Source of the DNA: Ascochyta rabiei
Lineage: Eukaryota; Ascomycota; Dothideomycetes; Pleosporales; Didymellaceae
DNA length: 64,000 bases
Assembly (NCBI RefSeq): GCF_004011695.2
Contig: NC_082423.1
Location: forward strand, 310,001 to 374,000
Direction of reading: 5' to 3'
The notes under the pieces are model-generated. The model had not been told where the DNA came from. It did not search any database and worked only from the letters and a program-made list of their open reading frames with translations. Shown here one piece after another: positions 5,121-56,439 of the stretch (its first letter is position 1; every line of letters starts with the position of its first letter). A program made the position numbers and the translations under genes.

Positions 5121-5131
5121 ACGGCCGCACA

Positions 5132-30050: not shown

Positions 30051-30232
30051 TACAGTAGCAAAAGGGTAGAGGTAGAGTAGGGTAGGGGTACATCACGTGA
30101 TGTACCCTACCCCTACCTAACCCCTACCCACGCTAATTCCTTACTAAGAGGGTAGGGGTTAGGTAGGGTCTACATAGGGTAGGGGTAGAGGTAGGGTAGA
30201 GTCTATATAGGGTAGGGGTACAGGTAGGGTAC
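30051..30232. mobile_element. Fold-back element remnant (copy D), split by gypsy 1
   Basis: It begins TACAGTAGCAAAAGGG, the same end as fold-back copies B and C after C-to-T change, and continues with GGGTAG-type repeats. A 20-bp perfect palindrome (GGTACATCACGTGATGTACC) lies at 30087-30106. The element is cut at 30232 by gypsy 1; the sequence beyond its 3' LTR (38360-38370, ATTACGTAAC) looks like the half palindrome from the other end, so D was already a short deletion derivative. Confidence 0.7.
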
Positions 30233-30434
30233 TGTTAGGCGCTAGGCCTAGGGGTACCTCTACTAGTCTCAGCGAGCTACTATAGGGCTAGCCAGCCTAG
30301 ACTATATAAAGGTGTTAGAGGTTATTACTAATACTCTAGTAATTAGTCTTGTTACTACACACTACGTACCTTTATACACCTACTGTCCTCTTTAACCCTA
30401 TCCTCCCTTATAATTACTTTATACACTCTTTACA
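30233..30434 (+). repeat. Gypsy 1, 5' LTR
   Basis: A 202-bp LTR with TG...CA ends, matching the 3' LTR in length and most positions; the differences are mainly C/T and G/A. Confidence 0.92.
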
Positions 30435-30559
30435 TTCTAATTACTCCTATATTATAATTAAAGATAGACCTAAGCTACTATAAGTCTTAAACTAAATTAT
30501 CTAGGCTTACTGTCTTTAGAGAGGGACTAAGACAACCTACCTATAGGAGAGCTAGTAGA

Positions 30560-35370: not shown

Positions 35371-35399
35371 AATAAAGTAACTGCTTAGACTGCGTAATA

Positions 35400-36847
35400 A
35401 GACATTAAGGTTAAAGTCTAAAAAAGAGGGGGACTAAAAAGGCTAATTACCCTTACTTAATTAAGATTTTTCCCTACAGGGGTTTTTTAATTAATAAGTT
35501 TTTAATAGTATATGCTAAGGGAAAATATAACCCTACCTTACCCTAAGGAATACAGACTAGCTAAAGCAGACATCCTTTCGCCTATTATAGCTATTTCTAA
35601 CATAAGAAGATAAAGAAAGTTACTAGCTATATTATAAGGTTATAATTATAAGAAAAATAGAAGAATTAGTATAGAAGAACACCTTTCTAGTATTATTTAG
35701 ACTATCTAAGAGTATAATGCACCTAATTGCTATATTAGCCTAAACCTATCTACTAACTACAAACTTAGGTATTATTAATCTAAACCTTCTATTATAAGGA
35801 ATATATACTAACTATAACTACTACTATAGGTATAAGTAGCAGCCTTACAACTATAAGGCTTCTTAGCAGCAGCAGCAGCAGCAGCAGCGTCGGCGGCGGC
35901 CTGCTTAGCAGCCTCCTGTTCCTCCTGCTCCTCCTAGAGCTAGCTAAGGGTCTTTCTAGTACCTGTAATCTGGTACTTTAACTATAAAAGAAGTTAGATA
36001 TTATTAAAATAGGTTAAAACGTGCTATAAAACCTTCTTACAGGGGGTAATAGGCACATCTAAATTAGACTCGCCACTGCTCTCCTCTAACATCTTCTTTT
36101 ACTTTATCTCAGCCTTAACAGCGCTAGCCTTAGATTAATCTTGCTTTTTAACGTAGATGCTAGATAAGGTTAACTTACATGCGCAAGTGTTGCTATTATA
36201 GAGCGTAAGTAGGTCTTCCTATAGCAAATAGTTCCTATAAAGCTTAGATTATACTATAATAAGCTAAAAAGAGATAGAACATACTCTTAAATTATACCTA
36301 GCAACAAGCTAGCCTAGTTAACAATAGACTTACCTATTACAGTGTTCTTATTAATAAACTTAGGCGTAGTATTAGCAGGTGTTATAGGGGTAGTCTTAAC
36401 GCTAGCTGCATTAATAATAGTAGAATAAGCAGTAGTAACTACATAATAACTAGAATAAAGGCGCGCTATGTTGCTAGAAAGCCTTAAATAGCTGTTAGTG
36501 TACTTATTAGGGCCCTAAATGTGTTAAAAGATATTAAAATAAGCTAAAAGAAGACAAAACACGTACTAATAGGCAATTCTTGTTGCTATTATAACACTCT
36601 CTGTAGTAGTAGGCCTAGGCGTTCCTATAGCGTAGGCTACCCTATAAAGCTAGGTTAGTAGAGAAATAACAGTCCCTATAAACATTACTATTAGTAATAT
36701 AGTAGAGACAGAGCATACAGCACTACTTAGCAGTCCTACTATTCTTATTAATATTAATCTTCTAGTAAGCAGGTATAGACATAACAGCTATAGCAAATAG
36801 TAGTTAGTAATAGTTAGTAACAGCTAGTAGTAGGCAGTAGCGGTTAG
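35400..36847 (-). other. Gypsy 1 3' region with possible antisense frame and a GCA run
   Basis: Between the chromodomain and fold-back copy A no plus-strand protein is recognisable. On the minus strand a Glu/Ala-rich stretch (EEQEEQEAAKQAAA, then Ala8) lies at about 35940-35860, and an Ala/Thr/Pro-rich reading lies at about 36340-36460. A (GCA)n run at 35872-35889 is undamaged. This may be a relic of an antisense gene as in gypsy 2 and 3, but the sequence is not visibly related to theirs. Confidence 0.35.
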
Positions 36848-37669
36848 TACGGTACGTGATGTACCCCTACCCTACCCTACCCCTACCCACGCTAATTCCA
36901 TGCTAAGAGGGTAGTGGTAGGGTAGGGTCCACATGGGGTACGGGTAGGGGTAGGGTAGGGTCTACATAGGGTACGGGTAGGGGTAGGGTAGGGTCTACAT
37001 GGGGTAGGGGTAGGGGTAGGGTAGGGTCTACATGGGGTATGGGTAGGGGTTAGGTAGGGGTTGGGTAGGGGTTAGGTAGGGTAGGTGTCGGCGTGTAACT
37101 CTTTAACTAAAGCAGGTATTGCAACACCTTGTACTACAGAAATGTAGGGCAAGACAAGCGCTTTCAAACGGTCTATATACCGTGAGATTCCAATCAAAAC
37201 TGGTAGAGTTACAGCAGTTGTTGTGTAAGTCCTAGGTTGTCACAATGTAGGCCTACGTAACAACTGCTCTAGCTCCACCAGTTTTGATTGGAATCTTACG
37301 GTATATAGACCGTTTGAAAGCGCTTGTCTTACTCTACATTTCTGTAGTACAAGGTTTTGCAATACCTGCTTTAGTTAAAGAGTTACACGCCGACACCTAC
37401 GGGCCCTACTTAGGCCTACCTCTTCCCTACAGACCCTACCCCAAACCCTACCCCACCCTACCCCTACCCCTGGTCTGTGCGGACCGTACCCTACCCCTAC
37501 CCCACGCTAGAGGTACCCCTACCCTACCTCTACCCAACGTCCGTGCGGACCCTACCCTACCCCTACCCCATGTAGACCCTACCCCTACTCTACCCCTACC
37601 CCTAGTCTGTGCGGACCGTACCTAACCCCTACCCAACCCCAGGGTACCCCCTACCCTTTTGCCAGCGTA
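36848..37669 (-). mobile_element. Fold-back element copy A (hAT-like ends), nested in gypsy 1
   Basis: The 8-bp duplication GCGGTTAG (36840-36847 and 37670-37677) brackets 822 bp. The right end is CCCTTTTGCCAGCGTA; the left end, TACGGTACGTGATG, has lost about 35 bases just inside the terminus compared with copies B and C. The outer parts are GGGTAG/GGGGTAG repeats (36890-37080) and their complement (37405-37655). The centre (about 37082-37402) is an inverted repeat with arms of about 150 bp around a short loop. It lies in the opposite orientation to copies B and C. Open frames inside are products of the tandem repeats. It is the least RIP-damaged copy. Confidence 0.88.
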
Positions 37670-38152
37670 GCGGTTAGGAACAGTCTAAAAAGGTTACTGG
37701 GGCGTATTGTGTAGTGCTATCTGCTAAAACGTGTTTAAACGTGCTAGAAAGACCTAGAAAATCCCTTAGCTATCCTTACAAAAGTGCTAGACAGAATAGG
37801 TTAGTACTTACTAAAATCAAGTAGGATATAGTAGTAATTAATAAAACTAGGGGTATAGATAGCTTATATACTGCTAGCCTCCTAGTTAGAGCTTTAGCCT
37901 GCGCAAATAGCTGCCTAGACCCTAGAGGTAAAGTAAGAGGTAAGAGAGGATTTCTGTTTAACTTTTACTAGTTAAAGGCAGAATTAGTATTAAGCCTTAT
38001 CTAACCTTACAAGGCGTTATAAATGCCTAAACCTAGTTAGAATTAGCTATAACAGGACAGACAGAGTAAAAACGTCTAAAGTTAGGCAAAAATAATACAG
38101 TATTACTAATTATACCATTGTTCGAGCTAAACAATCTAGAGAAGGGAGGCAT

Positions 38153-38354
38153 TGTTAGGCGCTAGGCCTAGGGGTACCTCTGCTAGTCTTAGCAAGCTAC
38201 TATAGGGCTAGCTAGCCCAGACTATATAAAGGTGTTAGAGGTTATTACTAATACTCTAGTAATTAGTCTTGTTACTATACACTACGTACCTCAATACACC
38301 TACTGTCCTCTTTAACCCTATCCTCCCTCGTAATCGCTTTGTACACTCTTTACA
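38153..38354 (+). repeat. Gypsy 1, 3' LTR
   Basis: A 202-bp LTR preceded by a purine tract and followed by the GGTAC target duplication. Confidence 0.92.
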
Positions 38355-39087
38355 GGTACATTACGTAACTATACATTTGTCCTATTAAAGCCTCTTTCTA
38401 TAAATCTTTTAGTTATTAAGCTTTAAATATAATTACAGATAATTATTATAAGTAGGTGTGTTTATTTATTAGTAGCTTATATTGTACAAACATTCTGTAA
38501 AACCCTAGTTCTCTCTTTTTCTACTCTTATAATATCTAATTATTTAGTAGAGGTTACTTATAAGCTTTTCGTAGTATTACTTTATAAGACCTATATCCTT
38601 TAGCTAAATAGTAACTTATTTTATATAGAAAGTGTTTATATTAATATCTTTAAATATTAGTTTTATGTGTTTCTATAAGAAACTTACATATACCTTTAAA
38701 GACACTAATAAGAAAAAATTTAGCAGACTCCTACAAAGCTTCTAGAGCGCTAGCCTAGAATTAAAGATAATTTCTTAGTTAAAGAGTAACTTCCTATTCT
38801 ATATATAAGAGTTGTATCTTAGGTATTAATAATTTAGTTAACCTCTAGTATAAACAGATATTATCCAGTGTAACTACTACCTTAGTATTAGTTATTAAAT
38901 ATAATAATAGAATATAATAATATACTGCTAGCCTTATAATAGTACCTATGCTTAGGTAGTAGAGTAGGCGCGTTCTAGGAAGACTTAGCTGCTAAAGGCT
39001 TTCTTACCAGCGTGCCGCAAGTTACAGCTAATCCTAAGCTTAGGACAGCCTTATTCCTGTAACCTCTAGCTATATTAGTAATTAGGT

Positions 39088-39230
39088 AGTAGGCTGTAGT
39101 ATTAGGCTGTAATATTAGGCTGTTATAGTAGGCTGTAGTAGTAGGCTGTAAAACTAAGTGTAATAGCAGGTATAATAGCTAGCAGGCTGTAATAGCTGTA
39201 ATAGTAGGCTGTAATATTGTAGTAAACCTA
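39088..39230 (+). repeat. Degenerate tandem repeat of TAGGCTGTARTAT-like units
   Basis: About eight imperfect copies of a 12-18 base unit with the core AGGCTGTA occur in a row. Confidence 0.65.
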
Positions 39231-39359
39231 GGTTACGCAGTAGAATTATAGTAGTGTAGCTGTTATAATAGTGTGTTAGTGTAGTGTAGAAGGTAACAGT
39301 AGAGCTTATTAATAGGTTAGTGTAATAACGCGTGTAGAGGTCTATGCGCTACTAAAGTT

Positions 39360-39850
39360 TAGGCTTCTACCTAATATAAGAAAATTAGAATCTAAAGCTA
39401 GTAGAAAGTTATTATAATTAATATGTACCAGCGTAACTATAATAAAAACCTGTAATAACTTACAGATAGTGTAAATACGCTAAGCATATTCTTTTAACCT
39501 AGGCTGCATCTAATTCTCTTTTAATTTAATATTGTTAGACGCGTTGCAAATGCTTCTTAATGCTTTGGCGCTAGTGTTTGTTATTTAGGCGCTAGTAGAG
39601 GCAAGGCTACTGCCTATCGCAAGAAAACCAGAATTTATTGTAAGTAGGGGATTATTACAATTATTGTGCGTAGATAGTTATATAATACTAAACTATTATA
39701 ACTTATAGATTATGTATATACGCTAAACGCATTCTCTTAAAATAGGTTACACCTAGCTCTAAGCTGTTTTTATATTAGTAGAAGGGGTAATAATATTTTT
39801 TATTGCAACAGTGCTAGCATTTATTACTTTCGCGCTAGTAAAATAGGGAA
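39360..39850 (+). repeat. Two diverged tandem copies of an approximately 280-bp unit
   Basis: Blocks such as TACGCTAAGCATATTCTTTT / TACGCTAAACGCATTCTCTT and TTTGGCGCTAGTGTTTG / TTTCGCGCTAGTAAAAT recur about 240-280 bases apart, with many C/T and G/A differences. Confidence 0.5.
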
Positions 39851-41049
39851 AGGTTAAGTACAGACTAGCTGCTAAAAATCTTACTACTACCCTACACTTC
39901 TATAACACCTTCTATATCTATAACAACTTCTGTATCTAAAACACCTTCTGTTTCTATAATACTACACGTTATTACTGCCTCCTATTACAGTTAGCATAAT
40001 TAATACTAACGCTAATTATATTAAGAAGGAGGAGGAGGAGAAGGATAATATGCTAACCTTTGCTAATACTACAGGTACTAGTATACTAGCTAGCTTTACT
40101 ATAAAGAAGTAGGATTAACTACATAAGGTAGTTATTACAGCTAGTTATAACAGTTAGTGCTAATAATTCTAGGGTTTCTATTTAAGAGACTATAAGATTA
40201 ATTACGTCCCTAATTCTTATAGTTAGATTAGGGCTGTAGGCTAAAAGACTAGTACAAAATTTTTACTTAATAGAGAGCTTAGCAACAGTATCTGCGCAGT
40301 TTAAAAAAGAAATTAAGCAGCCTTACGTAGTAAAGAGGAGGAAATTATCAATAAGGTAAAGACTGCTAATTATAAAGAAAAATACAAGGCTAGGCTAAAG
40401 TAAGGTTAAGACTAGTCTTATACTTTAGAAGAACTTAAAATTTAAGCTATAATAGTAGCCTAGACTAAAGGAAATATAGATTAGTAACGCTTTAGGGTAT
40501 CTGCTAGTAGTTAGTTATTACAGCTTCTTATAAAAGACAATTACAGACTAAGAATAGCTAAGTAGCTTTAAAACAAGCTTAAGACTATTTATAAGAAGTA
40601 GGATAATCTTAAGTATAAAATAGATCTTTACGCACACTAACAGGCCCTTAGAAAGTAAGCAGAAATTACTTAAGACAGTTCTACTGCTAGTTAGAGTACT
40701 ATAGGCTAAGGTAACAAACAGATCTTTTCTAACCGCAGCGTTAATAAGAAACTGCTCTGCTAATAGTATTAGTAAGGTCTTTAAAAACTTAAAGATAACA
40801 TCTTTAAGAATAAGAAGGAGAGAGAAGAGTATAAGGCCTTCTGTAATAATATGTTACCTTAAAGCATAGTAGTTACAACTAATAATACCTAGCTGTAAGT
40901 TGTTATATTATATTATTATATGTACTTACTAATTATAGTAGTTAAACTAAACCTCTATCTCTCTTAAACAAGGTTAGTTAGGATACTAAGCGTGTTAGCT
41001 ACTGCCTATTTATTCTAGCACATAATAAAAATAAGTATAAGGAGGAGAT

Positions 41050-41533
41050 TGTTACAATCCTGTGCTAGGGTACGGCACAAACATAAGTACCAGCCAACTA
41101 AGACCCCTAACTCCGCCCTAAAGGAACGAACAGTGGAGAAGGACAGGACAGAAAGGGTTGTTACGTAACCGCTTGTTAACAAGCATAACATACATAACTA
41201 CTTATTAATAAGTATAGTATAATATGCCTGTCTATAAGCACCCTTATATATTTTATTAGACTAACTCTAGTTACTTTTTAATAAGTATTATATCTCCTTA
41301 GTATATAGTTAGTAGGAATATAACCCTTATAGTTTGTATTTAACCTTATTAATTAAGTTTGTCTTTAGAATCTTAACCTGCGCTTAAACTAGACAGTCTC
41401 CTCTGTACTATTTAGTGCACCCTATCTTTACAAGCTTTGCTTAGTTAATAACCCTAACTAATCTACTAGTACTTATCCCTAAGAACTAATAGAATTAGTG
41501 CTTACAGTCTTTAACTAAAGTACAACTTTAACA
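41050..41533 (+). repeat. Gypsy 2, 5' LTR
   Basis: A 484-bp LTR preceded by GAGAT. It is clearly less mutated than the 3' LTR in its first 200 bases (for example it keeps CCAGCCAACT). Confidence 0.92.
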
Positions 41534-41599
41534 TTTTAAACACCCCTAAGATAAGTACTATTAGATCCTGTGCTACCTCTAGTAACTCTACGTCTTGCA

Positions 41600-44500
41600 A
41601 CATTAACATAGATGTAACTGTTACTACTAGCACTATAAATGTTAACAAGCCTAACCTTTACTATAGAGATTATAGTAAGCTTAATAACTAGCTTATAGAG
41701 TAGGACCTCTTCTTTACCTTCTAAGGTAAGAAGGTTCCTAAGGCTAAATAAGTAGTCCTTGTAGCTAGCTACATGCGTAGTAAAGTGTTTACCTAGATTA
41801 AGCCCTTTATACAGCAGTACTAAGCTAGTAAGGCCCTAAACAACGTAGATAAATAGATAAAAGACTTTAACCTATTTAAAGAAAAGATTAAGCTAATCTT
41901 TAGAGTCTCTAACAAACCACATATTGCTTGACGCAACATTTAGAAGATTAGACAGGATAAGTTAGCTACTAACTACGCTGCAGAGTTTTAGCAGCTTACT
42001 GCTAATATTTACTAGGATAATACTGCCCTAAATACTATGGTTTAATAAGGATTAAAGCCTAAGGTTAAGAAAGAACTTATGCGCACTAGCGCAAGCACAG
42101 AAACCCTTAACAAGCTTATTAATACTACTACTAACATTAACATACAACTCTACAAACTTTAGCAGGAACTTTAAGATAACCTTAGAGCATGTACTACTGT
42201 TATTGCTACTAACAGACTACTACTAAGGAACTAGTAGTGTAATAACTTAAATTAAGGACAGTAAGGAGGCTGTAATTAGCTAAACACTAGTCGTCGCATC
42301 TACAGCAACACTTAGAGTAGATGCTACAGGCCTAAAGCAATAGACCTCTTAAACCTTAATAAGGAACCACTAAAGCAATAGAATAAGAAGCCTAAGGGGG
42401 GTAACTAACACAGAGGCAGCATGGACTGCTACAACTGTAGCAAACTAGGCTACTTTACTAGGGACTGCTAGATAAACAAGGTTTACTACTAGTTAAATGT
42501 ACTTACCTGTACTTATAATAATATAGATGCTAGTAAATAGGAAATTCTTACTAATAATATAGGACAACTGCTAGAAGACCTAGAGTCTAGTCTAGAGGAT
42601 AATAACAACTGTATTGTACCTCTAATTTGTGTAGCAACACCCTCCTAGAACGCCCAGACAGGCAAAGAAACAGAGTGCTACTCTAACAACAACCAGCAAA
42701 AGATAGACAACCTACTAGACACCTTAGGATAAGAGTTTAACTAAATTAGCGCTCTACTAACACGTAAACAAGAACGCATAGCTTAACAACGCTAGAAGCG
42801 TAACAATAAAGAAGCCCATTACTAAATATATTAAGAACTTGTTAGTCCTATAGGAGTACCTAAAATTACAGGAATAATACTAGAACTCTAGCAGCTTATT
42901 TACTAGTTTAGAAAAGAAATTAACAATAGCAAACAGTTTACTAATAACCTAGAAGAAGCTAAAGACTAGCTTTAGTATATCTAAGAAACATAGCTTAGCC
43001 TAGAACGTATGCAGAAGCAGAAAGAAGCACTACTAATAATTAGCCTATAACTACAGTACATCCTAGACTACTAAAACCTAAAATATAGAAACCTTACGTA
43101 GACAGTATACACTAAGGATAAATACATAATCTACTATAATAAGAAGCTTAGTGCAGGATAGTTCCTAGCACAATAAAGCCTCTGTTGTAGTTAATAGTAC
43201 TAGTGTTATAATAACCTATGTAAACTTCATCTTATTAACAAACACTAGAAAGTATACTTTCCTAGAACAGATAACCTACAGGCTACAATACAAATGTAGC
43301 TAGTAGTTAACAGAAGTTGCTATAATATACACTAATAGAACTGCCTTAATATAGATTATAAGAAGCACTACAGTATAAAGGAGTTTAAAGGGTTTAGTAA
43401 AGAGGGGACTTTTTTAGGCTAGCGCCTAAGAGCCCTAGGGATCAATCTATTAATAACATTAGGAACAATCACCTTATTAAGCTACCTATTAAACTAAATA
43501 GGGTAGCCTTAACAGCACCCTTAGACTTAGGAGTATAAGTAGGTTATATATCTTAAACAGCAATATAGCAAGCTAGACTTAGATTATATTATAAGAGAAC
43601 TATTACTTACTTTAAGTAGCTAATAGAGAATTAATGCTAGATAAACTGCTAATTATATTTAAAGTGATAGTAGCACCCCTACAGATACAGAGGCACTATA
43701 AGGAAATAAACCTAGACGTCTTTATAAAGGCCACGCACAACGTTATATTAGAACTTCCCTATTTACAAAAGCACAACCTAAAGATAGACTAGGCATAAGT
43801 AAGACTTTTATTAGAAGGATGTAAATACAGCACTAATACATCTACGCCTACGCAGCGCACAGAGTAGCTAGTAGATAAGAAAGAGATTAATAATGTCTCT
43901 TTAATATATAAGATGTACTAAGATAGAGCAGTTAACTCTATAGATGCTAAACGCCCTACAGATTATAAAGCAAGAGTTAAGGAGGAAAGGAGTGTACCTC
44001 CTGCTATCCCTAACGTGTATAGACAGTACGCAGAGATATTTAGAAAAGAGCTTATAGTAAAAGCCCTGCCTAAGCATAAACCCTAGGATTATACAATTAA
44101 GCTCTAGGAAGGAAAGATACTAACTTTTAGGCTATTATATTAGTTATTAGAAAAGGAACTTAAAGTACTTTGCAAGTATATTAAGGGGAACCTTAAGAAG
44201 GGATTTATTAGAAGACTAGAATTACCTGCAGGGTACCTATTTATGTTTGTTCCTAAGAGGGATAGTAAGCTATAACCTTATATCAACTTTAGGAAGCTTA
44301 ATAAAATTACTATTAAAAGCAGCTACCTGCTCCTAAACATTATAGAGTTGCAGGACTAGCTAGGAGGAGCTTAGTACTTTACAGCGTTAGACCTATAAGG
44401 CGCGTACAACCTTATATGCATAAAGAAAGAAGAAGAATAGAAAATAGCATTTAGGACGCAATATAGACTCTATAAGTACCTAGTTATACTGTTTAGTCTA

Positions 44501-46770
44501 ACAAACGCACTACTAATATGCTAGAAGTTAATTAATAACGTCCTAAGAGCACACCTTAACAGAACTATAGTAGCGTACCTAGATAATATCCTAGTGTACT
44601 TAAAGACACTAGAAGAGCACAAATAACACGTTATAGAAGTGCTAGAATGCCTAAGGTAGGCTAACCTATAACTTAAACCTAAGAAGTGCAAATAGAATAA
44701 GGAGGAAGTTAAATTCCTAGGGTATATTGTAGGACAACATAGAGTTAAGATTAGTCTAACAAAGGTAGAAGTAGTTAAGACTTAGCAGATGCTAAAAATA
44801 GTTAAACAGATCTAGGAATTCTTAGGATTTGTTAACTTTAACTAACGCTTTATTAAGGACTACTCTAAGATTACAATCCTGCTAACAAAGCTTACGCAGA
44901 AGGATACACTATTTAAGTAGGGATAAGAACAGAATAATATATATTTAAGGCACTTAAGCAAGCCTATATTACACCTCCTATATTAATTATGTTTTGTAGT
45001 AGCAAACTAATGCGCATAGAGACTAACGCCTTAGATCTTGTATTAGGCGCATTTATTACATAAGAAAAGGATAAACTATAGTATTCTATTACTTACTACT
45101 TACGTAGGTTCTTAGGACCTAAAGAACGCTATAATATGCATAACAAAGAATTACTTATAATTATATTAGCTCTAGAACATTAGCAACTATACGTAGAAAG
45201 CTACTTAGAACTTACTATCTACACTAACTATAAGAACCTAGTATACTTTACTACTAATAAGGTCTTAAATTAATAATAAGTATATTAGTCTAAGATACTT
45301 AGGTAATATAAATTTAAGATATTGTATACGCTAGGTAAAGACAATAGTAAAGCTAACGTGCTTAGCAGACAACACAACCTTACTAGAGAAAAGACAATAA
45401 ACTAGTTCGCAGTACTAGGAATTAACAACAATAGGTTACTTAGACTATTACAGTAACTAAATAATATAATACAAATTAAAAACAAACAGCGTATTACATT
45501 AGACGTACTAGAGGAACTTTAGGACAAAATGATAGCTAATTACTCTAATAACCTGCTTTATAGACACCCTAGAATTACACGTATAATAGAACTTATTAAG
45601 TAATACTATAAGTTTAGTAATATAAAGGATAAGGTTAATAAATATATTAAGAACTATATTAACTATTAGCAAAACAAACAGAGTACAGACGTGAAATACT
45701 GAGAAATATAGGTAAAAGAGCTACCTACAGCACTATAGACAAATATTACAATAGACTTTATTATATAGCTGCCTATCTTAAGAGACCCTATAACTAGATA
45801 CAACTTTAACTTAATCTTTGTTGTAGTTAACAGATTTACTAAGTACGCTAAGATAATACCTTTTTAATATAGCTATACTGCAGAGTAGCTTATATAAGTG
45901 TTTCTAGATTAGCACAGAAGGTATTATAGCATACTAGAATTAATTATTAGTAATTAAGACAAGCTCTTTATATTAAATTATTAGACTACGCTCTTAGCAG
46001 CTATAGGTACTAAGAAGAAGCTTTTAACAGCCTATTATGTACAGACAGACAGATAGACTAAAAGAACAAATTAGACTATAGAAATATAACTACAGATATA
46101 CAGCAACTAGTAGTAAGATAACTAGGTTTTACTGTTACCTATAGCACAAATCGCATAAAACACTAAATTGTTAGAAGTAACAGAAGAATTACTGTTCTTT
46201 CTAAATCACAGGATGCACCTAAATCTCTTTACTAGAAGTCTATATATGCTAATTTAGACTAAATTAGTAATATCCTTAGTAGTAAGAATAAAAGAAGTAC
46301 ATAAGAAAGTGCTAGAAAATATTAGTAATGCTTAAGAATAAGTAATCTTATATGTTAACTAGAAAAGAAAAACAGCACCTTAGCTAAAAGAGGGGGATAA
46401 AGTCAATCTCCTTATAAAAATCCTTTGCACACAAAGACTAATAAAAAAACTAGACTACGTTAAAGTTAGACCATTTGTTATTTTAAAGCAGATAAGCCTA
46501 GTTAACTATAGACTTAATCTGCTAAAGGATGTAAAGATCTATCTAGTGTTCTACATATTGCTATTAGAACTAGCTAACACTAGAACGCCTATCTAGAAGA
46601 ACTTCTATTTTTAAGTTAATAGTTAAGATAAATAGGAAGTTAAAAAAATAGTAATATATAGGGGAAATAGCAACTAATAAAGGTACCTAGTTAAATAGTT
46701 AGGATACCTAGACTTAGAAAATATATAGGAACTACCTGCGTACCTTATAAGCTGCTGCTAATTATTACAT
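41600..46770 (+). pseudogene. Gypsy 2 gag-pol relic with zinc knuckle and chromodomain
   Basis: Read through stops: gag (about 41620-42480) ending in a knuckle CYNCSKLGYFTRDC, where the usual His is Tyr; a protease region (about 43460-43800); reverse transcriptase (about 44130-44870, with YINFRKLNK, TALDL-GAYNL, AYLDNILVYLK); RNase H (about 45000-45290, with YNMHNKELL); integrase (about 45540-46330, with TIDFII near its core start); and a chromodomain (about 46670-46760; RYLVKQLGYLDLENI). It is clearly the same family branch as gypsy 3. Not translatable. Confidence 0.87.
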
Positions 46771-46849
46771 AAGTACTATAATTTGCTACAGACTCTTTAA
46801 TTAAACTAAGAGTAATCTAGGTAGCTAGTAAGACATATATGCTAATTGA

Positions 46850-47230
46850 CGCTACAGGATAGTTAGGATTAACTTCCTTAGCTAGGTCTAACTTACTAGC
46901 TTTAACTATCCTATTTGCTAAATACAGCGCCTTTTGCCGCGTACAGTTATTTACCTGTTTTAGGATTTTCTTATTATGTAATAATTGCGCAATTATAGTT
47001 ATAAGCAGTAACTTATCTACTTCTACCTTTTTCTTATACTCCTTATACGGTTTATCTAATAACGCCTAAGACATGTTTATATATAGCCTACTAGCCTTTA
47101 TACACTTAGCATACTTTAGACCTTTTAGACTACCTAATATTATATAGCACTTATAGCTACTAAAGAAATAATAATTGTAAGGGACTTTAGTAGGTATATT
47201 AACTTAATAGATGTCTAGTATAAGATAGAT
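46850..47230 (-). pseudogene. Antisense frame of unknown function in gypsy 2
   Basis: On the minus strand, downstream of the chromodomain, a reading runs through YYFFSSYKCYI, then LKYAKCIKASRLYINMS, KKKVEVDKLL and QKALYLANRIVKASK. The same protein is readable in gypsy 3 at the same place, with conserved spacing. It has paired Cys and many Lys/Glu, so a small nucleic-acid-binding protein is possible, but I do not recognise a family. Its expression direction is opposite to gag-pol. One base is inserted relative to the gypsy 3 copy near the Cys start. Confidence 0.6.
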
Positions 47231-47350
47231 TTGTAGGCATATAAGGACATCTTAACTTACAGGTTACTAGATATAGAAATTGCAGATTATATAAAACTCT
47301 AATAGACAATTACATAGTTTAAGGACAAACTAAAGAAGAAGAGGGGATAG

Positions 47351-47862
47351 TGTTATAATTTTGTGTTAGGGCACAGTACAAACATAAGTACTAGCTAACT
47401 AAGACCCCTAACTTAGCCCTAAAGGAATAAACAGTAGAGAAGGATAGAATAGAAAGTGTTATTATATAACTGCTTATTAATAAGTATATATATATAACTG
47501 CTTATTAATAAGCATAATATATATAACTACTTATTAATAAGTATAGTATAATATACTTATCTACAAGCACCCTTATACATTTTATTAGACTAACTCTAGT
47601 TACTTATTAATAAGTATTGTATCTCCTTAGTATATAGTTAGTAGAAACATAACCCTTATAGTTTATGTTTAACCTTATTAATTAAGTTTGTCTTTCGAAT
47701 CTTAACCTGCGCTTAAACTAGACAGTCTACTCTGTACTATTTAGTGCACCTTATCTTTACAAGCTTTGCTTAGTTAATAACCCTAACTAATCCACCAGTA
47801 CTTATCCCTAAGAACTAATAGAATCAGTGCTTACGGTCTTTAACTAAAGTACGACTTTAACA
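47351..47862 (+). repeat. Gypsy 2, 3' LTR
   Basis: A 512-bp LTR followed by GAGAT. It is longer than the 5' LTR because of an expanded AT-rich repeat at about 47465-47545. Confidence 0.92.
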
Positions 47863-47901
47863 GAGATTAAAAAGTCTAATTCTAAGCTAGAGGAGTACTA
47901 T

Positions 47902-48673
47902 TACGCTGGTAAAAGGGTAGGGGGTACCCTAGGGTTAGGTAGGGGTTAGGTACGGTCCGCACAGACGTTAGGTAGGGGTAGGGTAGAGATAGGGTCCACA
48001 TAGGGTAGGGGTAGAGTAGAGTCTACATAGACGTTAGGTAGAGGTAGGGTAGAGGTACCTCTAGTATAGGGTAGGGGTAGGGTACAGTCCGCACAGACCA
48101 GGGGTAGAGGTAGGGTAGGGTAGGGTTTAGGGTAGGGTCTGTAGGGAAGAGGTAGGCCTAAGTAGGGCCTATAGGTGTCAGCGTGTAACTCTTTAACTAA
48201 AGCAGTTATTGCAAAGCTTTGTGCTACTAAAATGTAGAACAAAACAAGCGCTTTTTAACAGTCCATATACTGTAAGATTCTAATTAGAACTAGTAGAGTA
48301 AGAGTAGTTGTTACGTAGGCCTATATTGTAACAACCTAGAATTTACACAACAACTGCTATAACTTAACTAGGTTTAACTAGAAACTCACAGTATATAAAC
48401 TGTTCAAAAGCCCTTGTTTTAGTCTACATTTTAGTACTACAAAGTTTTGCAATAACTGCTTTAGTTAAAGAGTTGGACGCTGACACCTACCCTACCCAAC
48501 CCCTACCCAACCCCTACCCAACCCCTACCTAACCCCTACCCGTACCCCATGTGGACCCTACCCTACCCCTACCCTCTTGGCATGGAATTAGCGTGGGTAG
48601 GGGTAGGGTAGGGTAGGGGTACATCACGTAATGTACCCTACCCCTACCTAACCCCTACCCTTTTACTACTGTA
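47902..48673 (+). mobile_element. Fold-back element copy B (hAT-like ends)
   Basis: The 8-bp duplication AGTACTAT (47894-47901 and 48674-48681) brackets 772 bp. The ends are TACGCTGGTAAAAGGG and CCCTTTTACTACTGTA. Repeats of GGGTAG/GGGGTAG type fill the left arm (to about 48160) and their complement the right arm (from 48485). A central inverted repeat spans about 48175-48485. A palindromic TACATCACGTAATGTA lies near the right end. Moderately RIP-damaged. Confidence 0.9.
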
Positions 48674-48681
48674 AGTACTAT

Positions 48682-48959
48682 TAGTCTATACTAAATGTGT
48701 ATAAGACTATTAAGTAATTTTATAAGTTAATAGCTAAAAAAAGGTGTTAAGATATTAGACTTTAAAGAATCTAATAACAGTAATAAGATAGATCTAGAAT
48801 AGATATAGAGCTAATGTTTTAGCTTAAAATAACAGCTAATAAACATATACACAGCCTGTTTTGTAAATACTACTAATTTCTGTTTAATTTTTATTTTGTA
48901 TCTCTACGTAATTAGAAACTTACTTAAGATAACTAAGCTAAACCTAAAAAATTAAAAAG
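48682..48959 (+). other. RIP-damaged lead-in to the hAT transposase
   Basis: This A/T-rich stretch lies between the fold-back copy B duplication and the first recognisable transposase-like reading. No motif is seen. Confidence 0.4.
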
Positions 48960-50890
48960 GTATCTAGTTCCTCGCACTAAATATAACATTCTTGCTGTTA
49001 GGGTTTAGGCTTGCCCTAGGCAGTTTGTTAAAAAGTCTTTCTAATATCCTATTACCTTAGTATTAAATACTTAAATTTATTACGTTAATATATAACATAT
49101 ATGTTATTATTACTAGTAGATATACCTTCTACTGTACCTATACTCCTTCTATCTCTTACTTTCTTTACTATACAATTGTTAAAGGGGCTTTTCTAAAATA
49201 ATTATATCTTATTAAACAGCTAGTTTCCCTAGACTCTAATACTAACGAAAGTAAGGTACCTGTTATAGCATAGGATTGGTAGTAGACAACTATATTATAG
49301 AAAAGCAATCCTACATCTAAAACGCTATATTAGGATGCACTAACTTACTTAGGCTAGATCTAGAGTAGATATAGCAAACCCTCTTAGGTATAAGAAAGCT
49401 ATCTATATGTATACTGTTATAACTATAGTTTATTCTTTAGAACCTAGTTATAGAAGGCTATAGGACTAAGCATCTTATCTAAAAACTTAGTTTATAAGCT
49501 TGTAGACAAATTAGAAATCCTACTTATACTTTATTAAACCTCCTATTATATCTATATACTGCGTGCTAGTAAAATAAAAATTAGTTCTCTTCCACCCTAG
49601 CATACTCTACTTTAGCCTTAAAAATAGAGCTTATGTAATTAGTCATTAACAACAACTTCCTATTTTGAATAATTAAACAGTTATTATTTTAACAAACTCT
49701 CCACTTCCTAAGGCTAGAAGCTGTAATAACTACCCGTTATAATTTAGCTAGATGTTCTAGAGCTAGCTTAATGCTGCTAAACACGCTCTTCTTTAGGATC
49801 TTAGATTAAGTACTAAATTGTCTATTGTATTAGATGCCTAGACTACAAGTAATTACCTTAGCTTCCTAGCTTTACAAGGTTACTATATAAACAAGAGTTA
49901 TAAATTATAAGAAGTCCTTTTAGACTTTATTCCTATACACAGAAAATATATAGGATCCTCTATAGCATAGTAAGTTCTTTAACCTCCTAAGGAAACTAAA
50001 ACTGTAAAGTAGCTGCTTGCTATTACTTACAATAATGCTAGTAGTAACAGTGCTTTATTACAGACCTTAGAGAGGTTACAACAGCAGAACAATATCACTT
50101 AGGATAGAAGAGAGAATACTGTTCCTTATCTTACATATATAATTAACCTTATTATAAAGGATATTATTTAGTATCTCTAACTTAAGGTATTACTAGAACT
50201 AGAGCATGCAGAAAGACTGCAAGAACGGTATATTAGAGGTATTAAAAACAGCATGTCTATTCTAAACTCTCTCTAGAAGGTAGATGTTATTTATTACATG
50301 GTTTTATTACATAATCTATTACATACTAAGTATTATACAGATTTAAGCTATCTATATGGCAATAGATCTATTACTACAACAATTTAAGAGGGTTCTTACA
50401 CTATAGAGTAATATTCTGGTAATTTATTAACTTTTAGTTAAATAAAATGTTAGGGCTAGGTAGAACTCTACCTATAATATGTGTAAGCGTGCATAAAGAC
50501 TTTAGGTCTATATTAATAATTAGTTAGAGTAAGAAATTACACTAAAGGTATTAAGCTGTTAAGAAGGTGCTTCTATATATTAAAAGGTAGCAGAAGCTAA
50601 TTTTAAAAATCTTAAGAAACTTAACTAGTAGTCACTAAGTAGCAGCACCTGCGGGCTGTTATAATAAAGCTACAGTAATTTAAAAATATATCTAGTACCC
50701 TTAGCAGGACTTATAAGCCTCTTATGTAGCACATCTAGCTAATATATAACCAGCTATTTAACTTCTTAAATTAGATAACTAAAGAGCTTAGCGACAACCT
50801 AGGTCACGCTAATAACTTAGAATAGCTAGAAGTTGTAAAAGCAGCAGTATGAAAGGGTTATGTTGTAGGTAATAGTATTACTTAATGTAA
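48960..50890 (+). pseudogene. hAT-superfamily transposase relic
   Basis: Read through stops on the plus strand, a hAT transposase is visible. A possible BED-like N-terminus lies near 48970-49050 (RPRQFVKKSF-type reading). The core shows KLSIVLDA with SNYLSFLALQGYYIN (about 49820-49890) and VLLDFIPIH (about 49910), then NNASSNSALLQTLERLQQQN (about 50025-50085) and a TVPYLTYIINLIIKD block (about 50120-50160), corresponding to the conserved hAT CxxH-INL region. The C-terminal third has LRAVIIKLQ and IYNQLFNFL blocks (about 50655-50770). The stops are RIP-type. I could not find its terminal repeats, so the element borders are open. Confidence 0.8.
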
Positions 50891-50939
50891 GAAGGTGGTT
50901 GTATTAGAGACCGAGCCCTAAGGGCTTACTGAGATTATC

Positions 50940-51485
50940 TGATATACCCTCCCAAAAATCACGTGCCTCTAATCCCCAATGTCCCTTTAAGCCCTCGCCA
51001 CTTAACTCCCCTAATAATCACGTGCACCTAACCCCTAATAGCTCTCTAAGCCCTTATTACTTAACCCTATACTTTGCTCTACCACATATCTCCTCTACCC
51101 TAAGAGCTTAGCCCTATTAAGCTTACGTCTAGTATCTATATCTGTTCCTTTGCTCCCTGCAACTTTATTATCTGTTCTAACAGGTGCCCCCTACTATTGT
51201 TTGCCCCTAAGCCTCTTCACTTTAAGCAATCTCCTAGAGCTACCTAGCAGTTTATTAGGCTGTTACTTAATAATCTGCCTTTATCTAACCGCGTTTAATC
51301 TAGTCCTAGGCATCTAAGCCTGCTATAACTATTCTCTAGAGCCCTATTAGTCTAGGTCTAAGAGACTAGATCCTAAACCCTATATGTAACCTAAATTTGT
51401 TTGTTATAGCAGCTAAGGTAAGCCTAAGTGCTTACTGTTTGTTTGTCTTGTAAATCTCTAGCTTGTTTGTTTTCTGCCTATGTTA
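50940..51485 (+). other. Region after the hAT relic, with a direct repeat
   Basis: Two similar stretches, AATCACGTGCCTCTAATCCC (about 50958) and AATCACGTGCACCTAACCCC (about 51017), lie about 59 bases apart. The first part is less RIP-damaged. No coding motif is seen; it may be the 3' end of the hAT element. Confidence 0.4.
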
Positions 51486-51492
51486 TTAGATT

Positions 51493-53717
51493 TATTAATT
51501 AATTAATAAATTAATTAGTTTAACGTCCTGTGTGAGTCTAAGACTTAATAAGACAAGAGTAGTTAAGCTACTCTAGTAATTTAAGGAGCGTGTTTATGTA
51601 AGGGGATAGTAAATGCGTGTTTATATTCCTATAGTGAGAGCCTATGCTCTAAGAAGTAATTAGAGGATTTTAGGTGTCTGTTTTTTGTTAAAGGTACCAC
51701 TTACGTGTGCCTACTTTAGTCTCTAAAATAAAAGCTTAAGTAGCTAGAATTCCTTAGTTTGTGTGTAGTAGTAGGGTTATTAAAAGCCTCTAACCTTATA
51801 GGCTATCCTGCATTGTTTTCTCTACATCTCTGTATTCTCTACAGTATAGTAGAAGGTGTTGTAGTGTTTATATATAGCTGCAGATATATCTATTATTATA
51901 TATCTTCTGTATATTATATAGGTATACTTTGCTATATCTATATTCTAGTTTTAGTTAGTAGTAGGCACTAGCTGTCTCTGTCTTAGTATCATTTAGTAGT
52001 TTTATGTTGTTTATTAGTTCTAGCTAGTATTTTGTTGCGTAGGTGTTTGTTTTTCTTAGGATCACTATAGCTTTGTAGGTGTCTATCTTAAGTTTCCACT
52101 CTTTTATTGTAATAGCTTCAATCTTAATGCTAGTTTTGCTAATGCTTGTTAATTTATAAATAGGCCTCTTTTTAGTTGCTTCTTCCGCTAGGGAATCTGC
52201 TTTCTTGTTTCCTGCAATGTCCTGGTGTCTAGGGGCCTAAGTAAGGCTAAATGTAGCTCCTTTATTTTTAACAGTTTTAGCTACCTTTATACCGCGTATT
52301 TACTAGGCCTGTCTAGGTTTATTTAAAGGAGTTTTTAGTCTTAGGATTGCAGCCTAGTTATCTGTAAAGACTTAGATGTCCTATACTGCAGTAGCTATAG
52401 TAGCTATAATTTTAAAGCCTCTTATTTTACCTTCTAGTCCTCTATTATATATAATTTAGCCTTTGCTAATATTATAGCTTATAGAGTAGATTTCCTTAGG
52501 CTGTTATTTATAGTCTAGGACTGTAATTCCTACTTCTATACCTTAGCCTTTTGTTATAAAGAAAGCGTTTTTGTAGATAGCTAGTACATTACTTTCTACT
52601 TTTTATAGCATCTGTGTTTTATGTGCTTTTACTTCTTCTTCTTTTAGTAGTCTTAGGATCTCTGCCTAGTATGCTATACCCTTATTCTAGGGGCAGAAGT
52701 AGTAGTCTTTTAGTTTTTCTTTTCTTATACTAGGCGTAGCCTTTTCTATAGACTTTGTAAATCGCATAAGCTGTGTAGGAGGTTCTATTTTAGCCTAGTA
52801 TAGTTAACCTCTCCTTGCTCTACGCTAGAGTCTAGGCTACGCTAGCAAAAGGGTAGGGGGTACCCTAGGGTTAGGTAGGGGTTGGGTATGGTCTGCACGG
52901 ACGTTAGGTAGAGGTAGGGTAGGGGTAGGGTCCACATAGGGTAGGGGTAGGGTAGAGGTTCCTCTAGCGTAGGGTAGGGGTAGGGTACAATCCGCACAGA
53001 CTAGGGGTAGGGGCAGGGTAGGGTAGGGTTTAGGGTAGGTTCTGTAGGGAAGAGGTAGGCCTAAGTAGGGCCTATAGGTGTTAGCGTGTAACTCTTTAAC
53101 TAAAGCAGTTATTATAAAACTTTGTATTTCTAAGGTATAGAACAAGAGGAGCGCTTTTAAAAAGTTTATATACCGTAAGATTCTAAGTAAAACTAGTAGA
53201 GTTACAGCAGTTGCTACGTAGGCCTACATTATAACAACCTAGGATTTACACAACAACTGCTGTAACTCTACCAGTATTGCTTAGAATCTCACGGTTTATA
53301 GACCGTTTAAAAGCGCTCCTTTTACTCTACATTTCTGCTGTACAAGGCTTTACAATACCTGCTTTAGTTAAAGAGTTGGACGCTGACACCTACCCTACCC
53401 AACCCCTACCTAACCCCTACCTCTACCCTATATAGACCCTACCTAACCCCTACCTGTACCCCATATAGACCCTACCCTACCCCTACCTATACCCTATGTA
53501 GACTCTACTCTACCCGTACCCTCTTAGCATGGAATTAGCGTAGGTAGGGGTAGGGTAGGGTAGGGGTACATCACGTAATGTACCCTACCCCTACCTAACC
53601 CCTACCCTTTTGCCACCGTAGTCTAGGCCTATGGTTTGTAGAGTAGACTTTAGCTGTGTTGTAGCAATATAGATAGAGTAGTTATTAAGTAGCTTCCTAG
53701 CTTAAAAGGCGTACTTT
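51493..53717 (-). mobile_element. LINE copy 2, minus strand, 5'-truncated, with nested fold-back copy C
   Basis: The reverse complement matches the last part of LINE copy 1: the TTAATTAA tail (about 51493-51520), the GACTCACACAGGACG 3' end, the RNase H domain (about 52580-52180) and upstream coding to the block equal to LINE-1 27838-27930. Similarity stops at about 53717, where a copia LTR begins. A possible duplication TTAGATT (51486-51492 and 53720-53726) is weak because the right copy lies inside the copia LTR end. Damage is RIP-type. Confidence 0.82.
52838..53620 (+). mobile_element. Fold-back element copy C (hAT-like ends), nested in LINE copy 2
   Basis: The 8-bp duplication GTCTAGGC (52830-52837 and 53621-53628) brackets 783 bp. 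The ends are TACGCTAGCAAAAGGG and CCCTTTTGCCACCGTA. The layout equals copy B: GGGTAG-type left arm, central inverted repeat (about 53085-53385), C-rich right arm, and palindrome TACATCACGTAATGTA near the right end. The LINE reading resumes after it, so the insertion is clean. Confidence 0.92.
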
Positions 53718-53885
53718 TGTTAGATTGGATGGTAATAGTAAAGAGTTAATAATAATGTATTAATGTTGTGTTTTTGTTCTATATAAGGGTGATTTTTGTC
53801 TTATCTAGGTTCTAGTTAGGGCCCCTACACGGTTTCTTAGTAGGTATATCGCCTAACCTATTTCTCTAATACCTTTTAATTAACA
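53718..53885 (-). repeat. Copia 3' LTR
   Basis: TG...CA ends on the minus strand and a polypurine tract just upstream define it. No second copy was found in the window, so the borders rest on these two signs only. Confidence 0.6.
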
Positions 53886-55590
53886 CACCCCCTTAGCTTA
53901 GAATCCTATTGCAAGCTGTGTAAACTAGTTAATTAACTCTTTAACATAAGGTCCTCTAGTTGCTCTTGCATCTTCTAAAGCAGGATATCCCTTAATATAC
54001 CCTTCTAGCCCTTAACAAGTCCTAACTAATATAAAAAAGCTAGCCTATTTGCTTATTAGTAATAACTTTGTAAATCTATTAGTAATTATATTATTAGATA
54101 GGGTATATTCTACTTTAAGTATCTTATAGTTAACTTCTTATTATAACTAGTAGTTGTATATATTAATATACTAAAGCTTAGTTTATATCTTAGTAATATA
54201 TATAGTAACTAGATATATTGTCTATATATTATTACATGTAATTGTTATTATTAGATTACTTAGGGTTACCTAAAGCTTATTTAATAGTTAAGAGGTAAAT
54301 ATTGCTTCCTTAGCTACTTAAGACTGTGCTAGGAGCTTAGCCTTAGTGGTTAACGTTGTAACAGTATCTTATTTATTCGCTCTCTAGGCAATAAGTCCTC
54401 TAAATAGCTTAATAGCGTATCCTTAGGAACCCTTTTAGTCTACAGTATTGTTAGCAAATAATATATTACTTGTAACTTTAAGTCCTTTACTCTATCTAAA
54501 GTTAAAAAACAGATTTCTTGTCTTCTATAGGTATAGGGGCACTTAGTTAGCAGTGTCTTAGTGTTTATTACTTAGGTTAACTAGAAAGCGTATAAGTTGC
54601 TACGTAGTAGATACTATATTAGGTTAAGTAGTTACTACTATAAATAACAGGGATCTAATCTTTTACTAATATTAATTAATCTCTAGTAGTTTAGCTAGAC
54701 TATTTCTAGGCTTAAGTTTAATTCTAGATATTAGCGTATTATAACTTACTTCCTGTCTAGTTACTAATTAACCAATCTTATTAACGTATGCAGCTTATAA
54801 CAATTAAATTATCTATTACTATCTATTATATTAGACTTCTACACTAAGGAACTATAAAAGGTTATCTCCTCTAGTGTATAGGTATTGTTCCTATATCTAT
54901 TAGATATTATTATCTGCCTCTTGTTTGTGCTTTAGGTGGTAGGCAATTATAATATTGTCTACATAGAAGAAAAAAATTATTCTATTCTTAATTATACAGC
55001 ATAGCTCTTATAGTACTTATTTAAATCTAAATCTAGCTAATATTACTGTAAATTCCTTCTACTATAGTAGAGGGGAGATGCAGAGTCTATATAAGGCTTT
55101 CTATACCTTTAGTAAGGTGCCTAGCTTCTAGTATTCTCTTAGTATCCTTATATATATTTTGCAGTTAATAGCTGTATAGATAATAGCATTTATAATATCC
55201 TATTATTTTAGTTTAAGATTATACTTTGTAGTAATTGCTATTAGTATTCTAAGTAATTAGCCTGTAAGTGTAGCTGTATATATGTCTTATAACGTAATAT
55301 TATATTATTAGTGTCCTCTAACTATAAGCCTTACTTTATACTTATTAAGGTAGTAGTGTGTATTAAACTTATATATATAGACCTACATATAGTTAAGTAT
55401 TTATTATCTAGACTTCTAAACTAGAGCTTCTAGAACTTTAGTCTATAACTCTATTTGTTTATAGCTTAATAGGTTTTTATTTTCTACTTATTTAAACATC
55501 TTCTAGAGAGAGTGCTCCTCTAGCTTTAAGTATACTGTAGGTAATAGCAGGAGTTTATTCTAATGTAGTTTAATTCCCTTTACCGTTATG
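53718..55590 (-). mobile_element. Ty1/copia retrotransposon relic, 3' part, minus strand
   Basis: A 168-bp LTR candidate (53718-53885; on the minus strand TGTTAATTAAAAGG...CAATCTAACA) is preceded on that strand by a purine tract (AAGGGGGTG). Upstream, the minus strand reads as copia pol. The reverse transcriptase (about 55500-54800) holds FNTHYYLNKYK, then NLKLK, ALYRLCISPLL and the YVDNIII box, in which the second Asp has become Asn. RNase H lies at about 54400-53990, with VEYTLSNNIITNRFTK. The 5' half and 5' LTR are absent; homology fades near 55590. Confidence 0.85.
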
Positions 55591-55851
55591 GGCTTAGACC
55601 TTGTCTAAGCCTTAAGCGAGACAGGACGGTTACGTAACCTATAGACATATTAGAAGGACATGCAACGTGTTACCTCCTTAAGAGATATAATACTATATTA
55701 ACCCTTATTATATCCTACCCTAAGGCTAGTCTATAATATTTATATCTCTTCTTCTAGAAGAACAGCTAGCACTTATACTATGTTAGCTAGTTCCTAGAAT
55801 AACTTTCTAGATAAATCTGTCCTCTTAACCCTTTAGGAACTTATAGCCTAG
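55591..55851 (+). other. Left part of an element split by gypsy 3
   Basis: The stretch includes the palindromic GGCTTAGACCTTGTCTAAGCC-like motif at about 55600 and keeps some undamaged GC-rich sequence. Because gypsy 3 is a clean insertion here, this stretch joins directly to 62884 and is probably the LTR or leader of the element whose gag is seen at the right end. Confidence 0.4.
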
Positions 55852-56345
55852 TGTTACAATCCTGTGTAGAAGGAGCGGCACAGCAATAAGTATTATCTAA
55901 CTAAACCCTTAACTTCCTCCTAGAGAAACAACAAGTTAAGAAAGACAGAACACCTAGGGTTGTTACGTAACTGCTCGTTAACAAGCATAACACACGTAAC
56001 TGCTTGTTAACAAGCATGGTATGATATGCTTGTCTACAAGCACCCTTATGTATTTTATTAGACTAACTCTAGTTACTTGTTAATAAGTATTATATCTCCT
56101 TAGTATATAGATTACAGGAACACAACCCTTATAGTTTGTGTTTAACTTTGTTAATTAACTTTATTATTAGAATATCTTAACCCTGCTTGTAAAACAGATA
56201 GTCTACTCTATACTCTTCCTTGCAACCCTAGTTACTACAGTCTTTAACTAGATAACTACCTCTTTAAGAACCCCTACACGTACTTATCCCTAAGACCTAA
56301 TTAAATAATTACTTACAGACTTTGTCTAAAGTGTAAAACTTAATA
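55852..56345 (+). repeat. Gypsy 3, 5' LTR
   Basis: A 494-bp LTR with CCTAG before it. The expected terminal CA is TA, a RIP-like C-to-T change, compared with the 3' LTR. Confidence 0.92.
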
Positions 56346-56439
56346 TTTTAAACACCCCTAAGATAAGTACTTTAGGATCTTGCGCTACCCCTAGCAGCAC
56401 TTACTCTAGCAATGCAGACATAGATACTCCTGTTACAAA

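Follow-up and report, generated by a model that had tools for sequence, protein, structure and literature searches.

What are the three G-rich, hairpin-bearing sequences that lie among nested transposons in a 64,000-nucleotide window of a filamentous fungal genome, and what could have moved them? A sequence-only reading of this window (contig C19, positions 310001-374000; 23-contig assembly of 40,901,820 bp) had proposed a non-autonomous hAT fold-back family whose arms were built from G-rich minisatellite. Searching the whole assembly supports the core of this proposal, as the sequences belong to a dispersed family that has 8-bp duplications, paralogous empty sites and a larger relative with the same ends and a hAT domain. 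We are thus highly confident that they form a non-autonomous hAT family that combines the features of a miniature inverted-repeat transposable element (MITE) and a fold-back element, in a fungal host, most likely Ascochyta rabiei, with repeat-induced point mutation (RIP). Each element consists of the terminal ~160-250 bp from either side of a 6.6-kb hAT element, the interior being replaced by a ~320-bp palindrome in one to three tandem units.

Three copies with exact target duplications

Reading the sequence directly placed the three copies at exactly the bases given in the sequence-only reading and confirmed an exact 8-bp duplication around every copy. The features are as follows; L062 is one of five larger parental elements (L061-L065) treated below.

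36848..37669, plus strand: copy 1, G-type end left (damaged), C-type end right, one hairpin unit, in a gypsy-type retrotransposon
36840..36847 (left) and 37670..37677 (right): 8-bp target duplication of copy 1, GCGGTTAG
37081..37400: central hairpin of copy 1, arms 37081-37227 and 37254-37400, 94% complementary
36909..37085, plus strand: G-end subterminal array of copy 1, 11-bp/33-bp GGGGTAGGGTA units (Tandem Repeats Finder)
37429..37669, plus strand: C-end array and terminus of copy 1, matching L062 1-241, an end of this parent, at 92% identity
47902..48673, minus strand: copy 2, C-type end left, G-type end right, one hairpin unit, inside a decayed parent hAT element
47894..47901 (left) and 48674..48681 (right): 8-bp target duplication of copy 2, AGTACTAT
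48172..48489: central hairpin of copy 2, arms 84% complementary
52838..53620, minus strand: copy 3, C-type end left, G-type end right, one hairpin unit
52830..52837 (left) and 53621..53628 (right): 8-bp target duplication of copy 3, GTCTAGGC
53075..53392: central hairpin of copy 3, arms 80% complementary

The terminal inverted repeats are short, consisting of the 19-bp motif TACGSTGGCAAAAGGGTAG at both ends. Position 5 differs between the two ends, and we accordingly distinguish a C-type end, TACGCTGG, from a G-type end, TACGGTGG. The ends had been described as common to all copies, which holds at five of the six places (0, 1, 3, 1 and 0 mismatches over 19 bp) and fails at the left end of copy 1, where the motif was not found at up to 5 mismatches. 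Here, TACGG is kept and the sequence then passes straight into the neighbouring palindrome; we interpret this as an internal deletion. Adjoining the G-type end, strand composition is reversed over ~60 bp in copies 1-3 and in parent L061, producing a small second hairpin.

The central hairpins have arms of 146-147 bp separated by 26 bp, in agreement with the ~150 bp proposed. The description of the copies as almost wholly self-complementary suits copy 1 best, which matches its own complement from position 62 to 721 of 822 bp (81.6%), because the longest such matches are shorter in copy 2 (319 bp, 81.5%) and copy 3 (321 bp, 77.9%). For copy 1, the one copy of the three for which it was computed, the predicted DNA folding energy was -311.5 kcal/mol, as compared to -132.2 ± 5.5 kcal/mol in 20 shuffles (33 standard deviations lower). 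The window holds 30 quadruplex-type motifs, 24 of them in the three copies, one in a parent end and five elsewhere, with a mean expectation of 0.002-0.034 per copy in 500 mononucleotide shuffles. Quadruplex and hairpin formation is a predicted structural potential. Together, long inverted arms, internal tandem repeats and predicted folding give the window copies the features of fold-back elements.

According to Tandem Repeats Finder, the array unit is 11 bp long (GGGGTAGGGTA) and lies inside 33-bp and 66-bp repeats, the 33-bp repeat including GTCYACAT spacers. The GGGTAG arms had been called telomere-like, which applies to their composition only. The host telomere, read at the contig ends, is TTAGGG and differs from the 11-bp unit; a telomeric origin of the arrays was rejected on this comparison.

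A dispersed family with paralogous empty sites

Using the 16-bp end with up to 2 mismatches, we obtained 250 genome matches, compared to 23 for the reversed pattern, establishing that the family is dispersed. We then analysed 80 loci, comprising the 30 best matches of copy 3, the 30 first exact ends in contig order and 20 chosen stretches. These contained 44 adjacent inward-facing end pairs (accepted at up to 4 mismatches), of which 31 had exact 8-bp flanks and five matched at 7 of 8 bases; the chance of 7 or 8 of 8 is ~0.0004 per pair (25/65536). All but one of the 44 pairs combined one C-type with one G-type end, the remaining pair being C-C. Choosing the elements with a duplication of at least 7/8 gave a set of 39 on 16 contigs, 34 of them with an exact duplication, and 38 distinct duplications in total. 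The flanks of these elements have at most 45% GC in 38 of 39 cases (mean 35%). The target duplications of the adjacent end pairs favour G at position 1, T at 3, A at 6 and C at 8.

Decisive evidence of transposition comes from empty sites. For each of 40 elements (copy 1 and the 39 above), we built the sequence expected before insertion, with left flank, a single 8-bp copy and right flank, and compared it to the loci collected except for the 6 kb to each side of the element. A match counted if it was ungapped up to 12 bp from the join and extended over at least 60 bp in both directions. Paralogous empty sites holding a single 8 bp were found for 21 of the 40 elements (106 sites, to which two elements lying inside other members of the family contribute 53). 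When the join was shifted by +8, +4, -4, -8 or +16 bp, the number of elements with an empty site dropped to 2, 1, 0, 0 and 0 of 40, respectively. Copy 1 has five paralogous empty sites in gypsy copies, the best being 93.0% identical over 400 bp without a gap. For copy 3 there are three, one of them inside the window at 27832-29264, with an 8-bp overlap between the two flanks. The site of copy 2 is uninterrupted in all five parents, with 39 bp aligned on the left side; copy 2 misses the 60-bp rule because a long terminal repeat (LTR) element sits 39 bp to its left. The copies thus do not occur only as tandem arrays or segmental duplications, given the empty sites and the 38 duplications on 16 contigs. 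Some family members lie within other members, each with its own duplication (L071 1202-2051 in 622-2689; L070 4506-5726 in 3697-5818).

A larger hAT element with the same ends and arrays

Five larger elements of 6,590-8,665 bp carry both of the same ends and the G-rich arrays. Their duplications are exact in four cases and 7/8 in L061, and L062 has four empty sites of its own. Long interior matches among the five show 91-94% identity. Their end stretches are 84-95% identical to those of the mini-elements L066a, L074 and L075, with window copies 1-3 giving similar values; in copy 1, positions 36856-37020 share 92% identity with the end of L062. Because the arrays are common to the larger element, they were not created in the mini-element. 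The arrays are subterminal repeats of the parent and not telomere repeats. The hairpin arm found no match in the five parents.

Larger elements with these ends carry the hAT dimerisation domain. In L061, PF05699 was found with an E value of 1.1e-6, and the three plus-strand frames of this degraded parent contained no other Pfam family at E ≤ 0.001 and no P-type THAP domain. Genome-wide, at least 14 of 44 PF05699 matches have an exact C-type end 608-734 bp downstream among the ends listed; this count is a lower bound because the ends compared are the first 100 exact ones (70 C-type, 30 G-type). No G-type end among those listed faces any PF05699 match within 1.2 kb. Scoring 40 of 44 candidates, we obtained at least 43 genome matches to a 1,001-bp piece of parent interior. 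Of these, 27, including the query, are nearly full length, with identities of 84-95% apart from the query itself.

The parents are heavily decayed. Each of the 14 end-associated hAT domains, of about 80 codons, contains four to six stop codons, so that none of them is intact, and the parent reading frames have about one stop per ten codons. The original frames were not recognisable from TGA-free runs, TGA being rare in all six parent frames. Elsewhere in the genome, five PF05699 places are free of stops, including C1:1389237-1389476 in a 655-codon open frame, which may represent a hAT from a different lineage, either intact or domesticated.

Anatomy and variation of the short elements

Among the 40 elements, 25 have one hairpin unit, six have two and one has three; the rest are three composite or nested elements and the five parents, which have none. 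The 32 short elements measure 531-1538 bp, and two of them lie inside other family members. They have the features of MITEs, being short, numerous and equipped with ends common to a coding element; their lack of a transposase is judged from their size and their hairpin and array make-up. Array lengths vary in steps, with many G-end arrays differing by multiples of 11 bp and C-end arrays measuring mostly 185, 218 or 251 bp.

In seven of the 32 short elements the hairpin units stand in tandem. Ten unit junctions were printed, nine of them distinct (one appears twice by nesting), and, point changes aside, all contain one and the same 32-bp spacer. Because the junctions share this spacer, the multi-unit forms would go back to a single duplication, after which the elements with several units would have transposed. 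The spacer is inverted relative to the ends in C21:178105-179325, C6:106962-108202 and C3:1466777-1469237, which suggests flips by recombination between inverted arms. The mean unit identities leave the origin of the multi-unit forms undecided, at 0.819 between unit 1 and unit 2 within elements (n = 14), 0.820 for the same unit between elements (n = 84) and 0.800 for different units between elements (n = 84).

We also considered homogenisation of the arms by gene conversion, which was not supported. Arm identity within the 25 one-unit elements (0.858) is close to that between elements (same-side 0.856 and 0.841, opposite 0.844), and we therefore read the arms as decaying independently from a near-perfect palindrome. 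In three one-unit elements (C11:65363-65893, C11:202144-202892 and C15:1244173-1244953), what follows the hairpin on the right resembles the complement of what precedes it on the left, so that the palindrome extends beyond the limits seen in the other elements.

A RIP signature in the parents and, in part, the hairpins

The five parents bear a strong RIP signature, with TpA/ApT of 1.93-1.98 and (CpA+TpG)/(ApC+GpT) of 0.62-0.68, compared to 0.64 and 1.24 in the genic stretch of the window. In the hairpin arms, C-to-T changes occur at a rate of 0.179 before G and 0.175 before A, as opposed to 0.079 before T and 0.087 before C, and G-to-A changes are commonest after T (0.164). This substitution pattern matches in part what RIP would be expected to leave. 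Counted against the majority base, A-to-G and T-to-C changes (304 and 251) outnumber the opposite ones (225 and 185), as expected because the majority base is already mutated at such positions.

The array core unit GGGGTAGGGTA contains no CpA, TpG or CpG, where RIP acts. Across the 32 short elements, GGGTAG occurs 711 times and GGGTGG once, and the neighbouring GGTTGG/GGTTAG steps, which differ in a TpG, are polymorphic (78 vs 118). The arrays have a GC content of 55-59% and the parent interiors 34%. The subterminal arrays could accordingly represent RIP-proof transposase-binding sites, an idea that we regard as rather doubtful. The array spacers keep CpA and TpG (767 of 14,107 dinucleotides), the terminal motif itself is RIP-sensitive, and the array unit could be a product of past RIP and not an adaptation.

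Mechanism and alternative explanations

The non-autonomous hAT reading implies a simple course of events. Parent copies, since destroyed by RIP, would have supplied the transposase, which would have attached to the terminal motif and to the repeat units of the arrays, cut out the element and integrated it elsewhere with an 8-bp stagger. By analogy to Hermes and Galileo, the arrays would thus provide multiple transposase-binding sites. Several observations weigh against this assignment. Eight of the 44 adjacent end pairs lack a good duplication (0-6 bases match), the others having one, and 19 of 40 elements showed no empty site in the analysed loci by our strict test. Of the PF05699 matches, 30 of 44 have no exact end nearby among the ends listed; these may belong to other hAT families. 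The dimerisation domain is the sole part of the transposase that we recognised, the RNase-H-like catalytic domain with its DDE residues and a BED finger not being seen, and an X-masked read-through of the rest yielded no relative among 7,991 candidates scored and no match to a solved structure. Finally, typical hAT elements have the target consensus nTnnnnAn and the end consensus YARNG, neither being universal. The target preference observed here differs from the former (35 duplications, symmetrised: T at position 2 in 23/70, at position 3 in 37/70), and the end sequence TACGS does not have R as its third base.

One alternative is that the family belongs to a different superfamily whose arms are long and repetitive, the foremost candidate being the P superfamily, which has fold-back ends of the Galileo type. 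Galileo-type elements make 7-8-bp duplications. Moreover, the internally repetitive long arms resemble those of Galileo, whose THAP domain binds tandem end repeats, as described in the available part of PMC3688188. However, PF05699 is present in elements that share these ends, and in at least 14 of the 44 genome matches its distance from one end is nearly constant; it was the only Pfam family in the three L061 frames; we therefore judge a P-type origin very improbable. Still less can be said for dispersed minisatellite pieces or segmental duplications in which the 8-bp matches are incidental. Such an explanation would fit the stepwise array lengths and the tandem hairpin units, but it is refuted by the empty-site test, in which a single 8 bp was found for 21 of 40 elements as opposed to 0-2 with shifted joins, and is hard to reconcile with 38 distinct duplications over 16 contigs. 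We assign it a negligible probability.

Two further alternatives concern parts of the element. The G-rich arms could be derived from telomeres or could be there to form quadruplexes serving the element, in line with the concentration of quadruplex-type motifs in the three copies. We consider this improbable, since the 11-bp unit within a 33-bp repeat with GTCYACAT spacers is unlike TTAGGG and the number of motifs per strand goes down to one in some complete copies. With the arrays common to the parent, binding sites account for them without quadruplexes. The central hairpin, in turn, could be an independent palindromic element inserted in an internally deleted hAT, and not the result of internal rearrangement. 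It was not found in the five parents, and a 23-base piece of the arm (up to 3 mismatches) had 200 genome matches compared to 0 in the control, some of the places listed having no listed family end near. On the other hand, inspection by eye revealed no flanking duplication at the hairpin edges, and among the first 100 matches listed no arm copy outside the family was established. An independent origin of the hairpin is thus unlikely on balance, with an appreciable chance of being correct.

Host elements and nesting in the window

At about position 23000, the window changes from gene-bearing DNA of 50-70% GC, interrupted by a single AT-rich island at 7-9 kb, to nested transposons that are AT-rich. 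A transporter-like open frame in the window, which may include a retained intron, has as its best hit an Ascochyta rabiei protein, with 96% identity along the full length. The three copies had been assigned to a gypsy element, a hAT-bearing region and a long interspersed nuclear element (LINE). The gypsy-type host of copy 1 was confirmed, the host of copy 2 proved to be a decayed parent hAT element, and the LINE assignment for copy 3 is weakly supported. The decayed parent can be followed through the window in three parts:

30051..30231, plus strand: G-type end with 2 mismatches, 84.7% identical to L062 1-181, split by a later LTR retrotransposon
38354..41050, plus strand: interior, L062 210-3128, 84.7 and 86.0% identical in two overlapping matches
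48674..50864, plus strand: interior continued, L062 3154-5336, 87.7% identical over 2202 bp

The 3' part of the parent, which carries the hAT domain, did not turn up in the window, and no PF05699 match is listed there. A gypsy-type LTR retrotransposon at 30228-38354 is inserted in this parent, with LTRs at 30228-30434 and 38148-38354 that are 93% alike. It has matches to reverse transcriptase, RNase H and integrase, and a chromodomain match below the cut-off. Copy 1 sits in this element and therefore moved after that retrotransposon copy existed. A second LTR-like element (~41051-47862) lies in the same parent hAT and stops 39 bp short of copy 2; to its left and right, the parent coordinates share ~6 bases.

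For the host of copy 3, no Pfam family was found in six frames of 50900-52836. Another copy of this host repeat lies at 27832-29264; a reverse transcriptase match is located ~2 kb upstream of it, beyond an intervening transposon. Beside copy 3, the window contains a copia-type reverse transcriptase (RVT_2, 53622-56621, minus strand). A DDE_1 transposase match at 25516-27399, which we take to be pogo/Fot1-like, has a 92% copy inside L064 and a 76% relative inside L065.

Relation to known elements and implications

hAT MITEs and fold-back elements with repetitive arms are already known kinds of element. According to the accessible sections of the source, the hAT element Hermes makes 8-bp target duplications and has asymmetric ends with subterminal repeats beyond its short inverted termini (PMC10368747). 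The family described here resembles Hermes in these three respects, and its parent has the C-terminal dimerisation domain. As far as those sections go, it differs in that the Hermes repeats are short and interspersed, whereas long 11-bp/33-bp G-rich arrays occupy both ends here and a BED finger was not seen. The partial text on Galileo of Drosophila (P superfamily) describes a similar fold-back-like organisation, with long arms and tandem repeats that hold transposase-binding sites (PMC3688188). Going by that text, Galileo has a THAP-domain P-type transposase, whereas the present family is hAT and the binding role of its arrays putative. Tetris and DAIBAM of Drosophila virilis are likewise non-autonomous, with end tips common to another element and tandem repeats in their arms, as stated in the excerpted report (PMC4079207). 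In contrast to the forms described in that excerpt, the large repeated unit here is the central palindrome, and a hAT parent is identified.

Pyrenophora tritici-repentis belongs to the Pleosporales. From the portion of the publication at hand, it contains a hAT element with a histone H3-like gene in long (5.6 kb) and shortened (2.3 kb) forms (PMC3538342), which is comparable to our family in having both long and shortened forms with cargo between the ends. There, however, the cargo is a gene, and the terms '8-bp' and 'palindrom' are absent from the main text. MITEs have also been annotated in Ascochyta rabiei ArME14 (7 sequences, 4,193 nt) and A. lentis Al4 (6 sequences, 3,736 nt), probably the same host species and its sister, as given in extracts of PMC7341154 and PMC8022934. 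Neither main text contains 'hAT', and their passages on MITEs do not describe the family, whose copies may sit in the terminal inverted repeat class of these annotations. By the figures in those extracts, the ArME14 MITE list of 4,193 nt is smaller than the 32 short elements found here. In titles and abstract openings, with subscription journals mostly outside the search, we found no description of a fungal hAT combined with G-rich arrays free of RIP targets in the core unit and a tandem central palindrome.

Tying a striking palindromic repeat of this genome, probably that of a chickpea pathogen, to its parent transposon makes its proper annotation possible. The length steps of 11 bp, 33 bp and whole hairpin units could mark activity or recombination inside the element. 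Moreover, the family provides a clean case for asking how the ends of a DNA transposon survive the RIP that destroys its genes. If the arrays were indeed RIP-proof binding sites, RIP would kill the transposase genes while the ends stayed mobilisable, and gene-less hairpin derivatives would be favoured as the surviving form.

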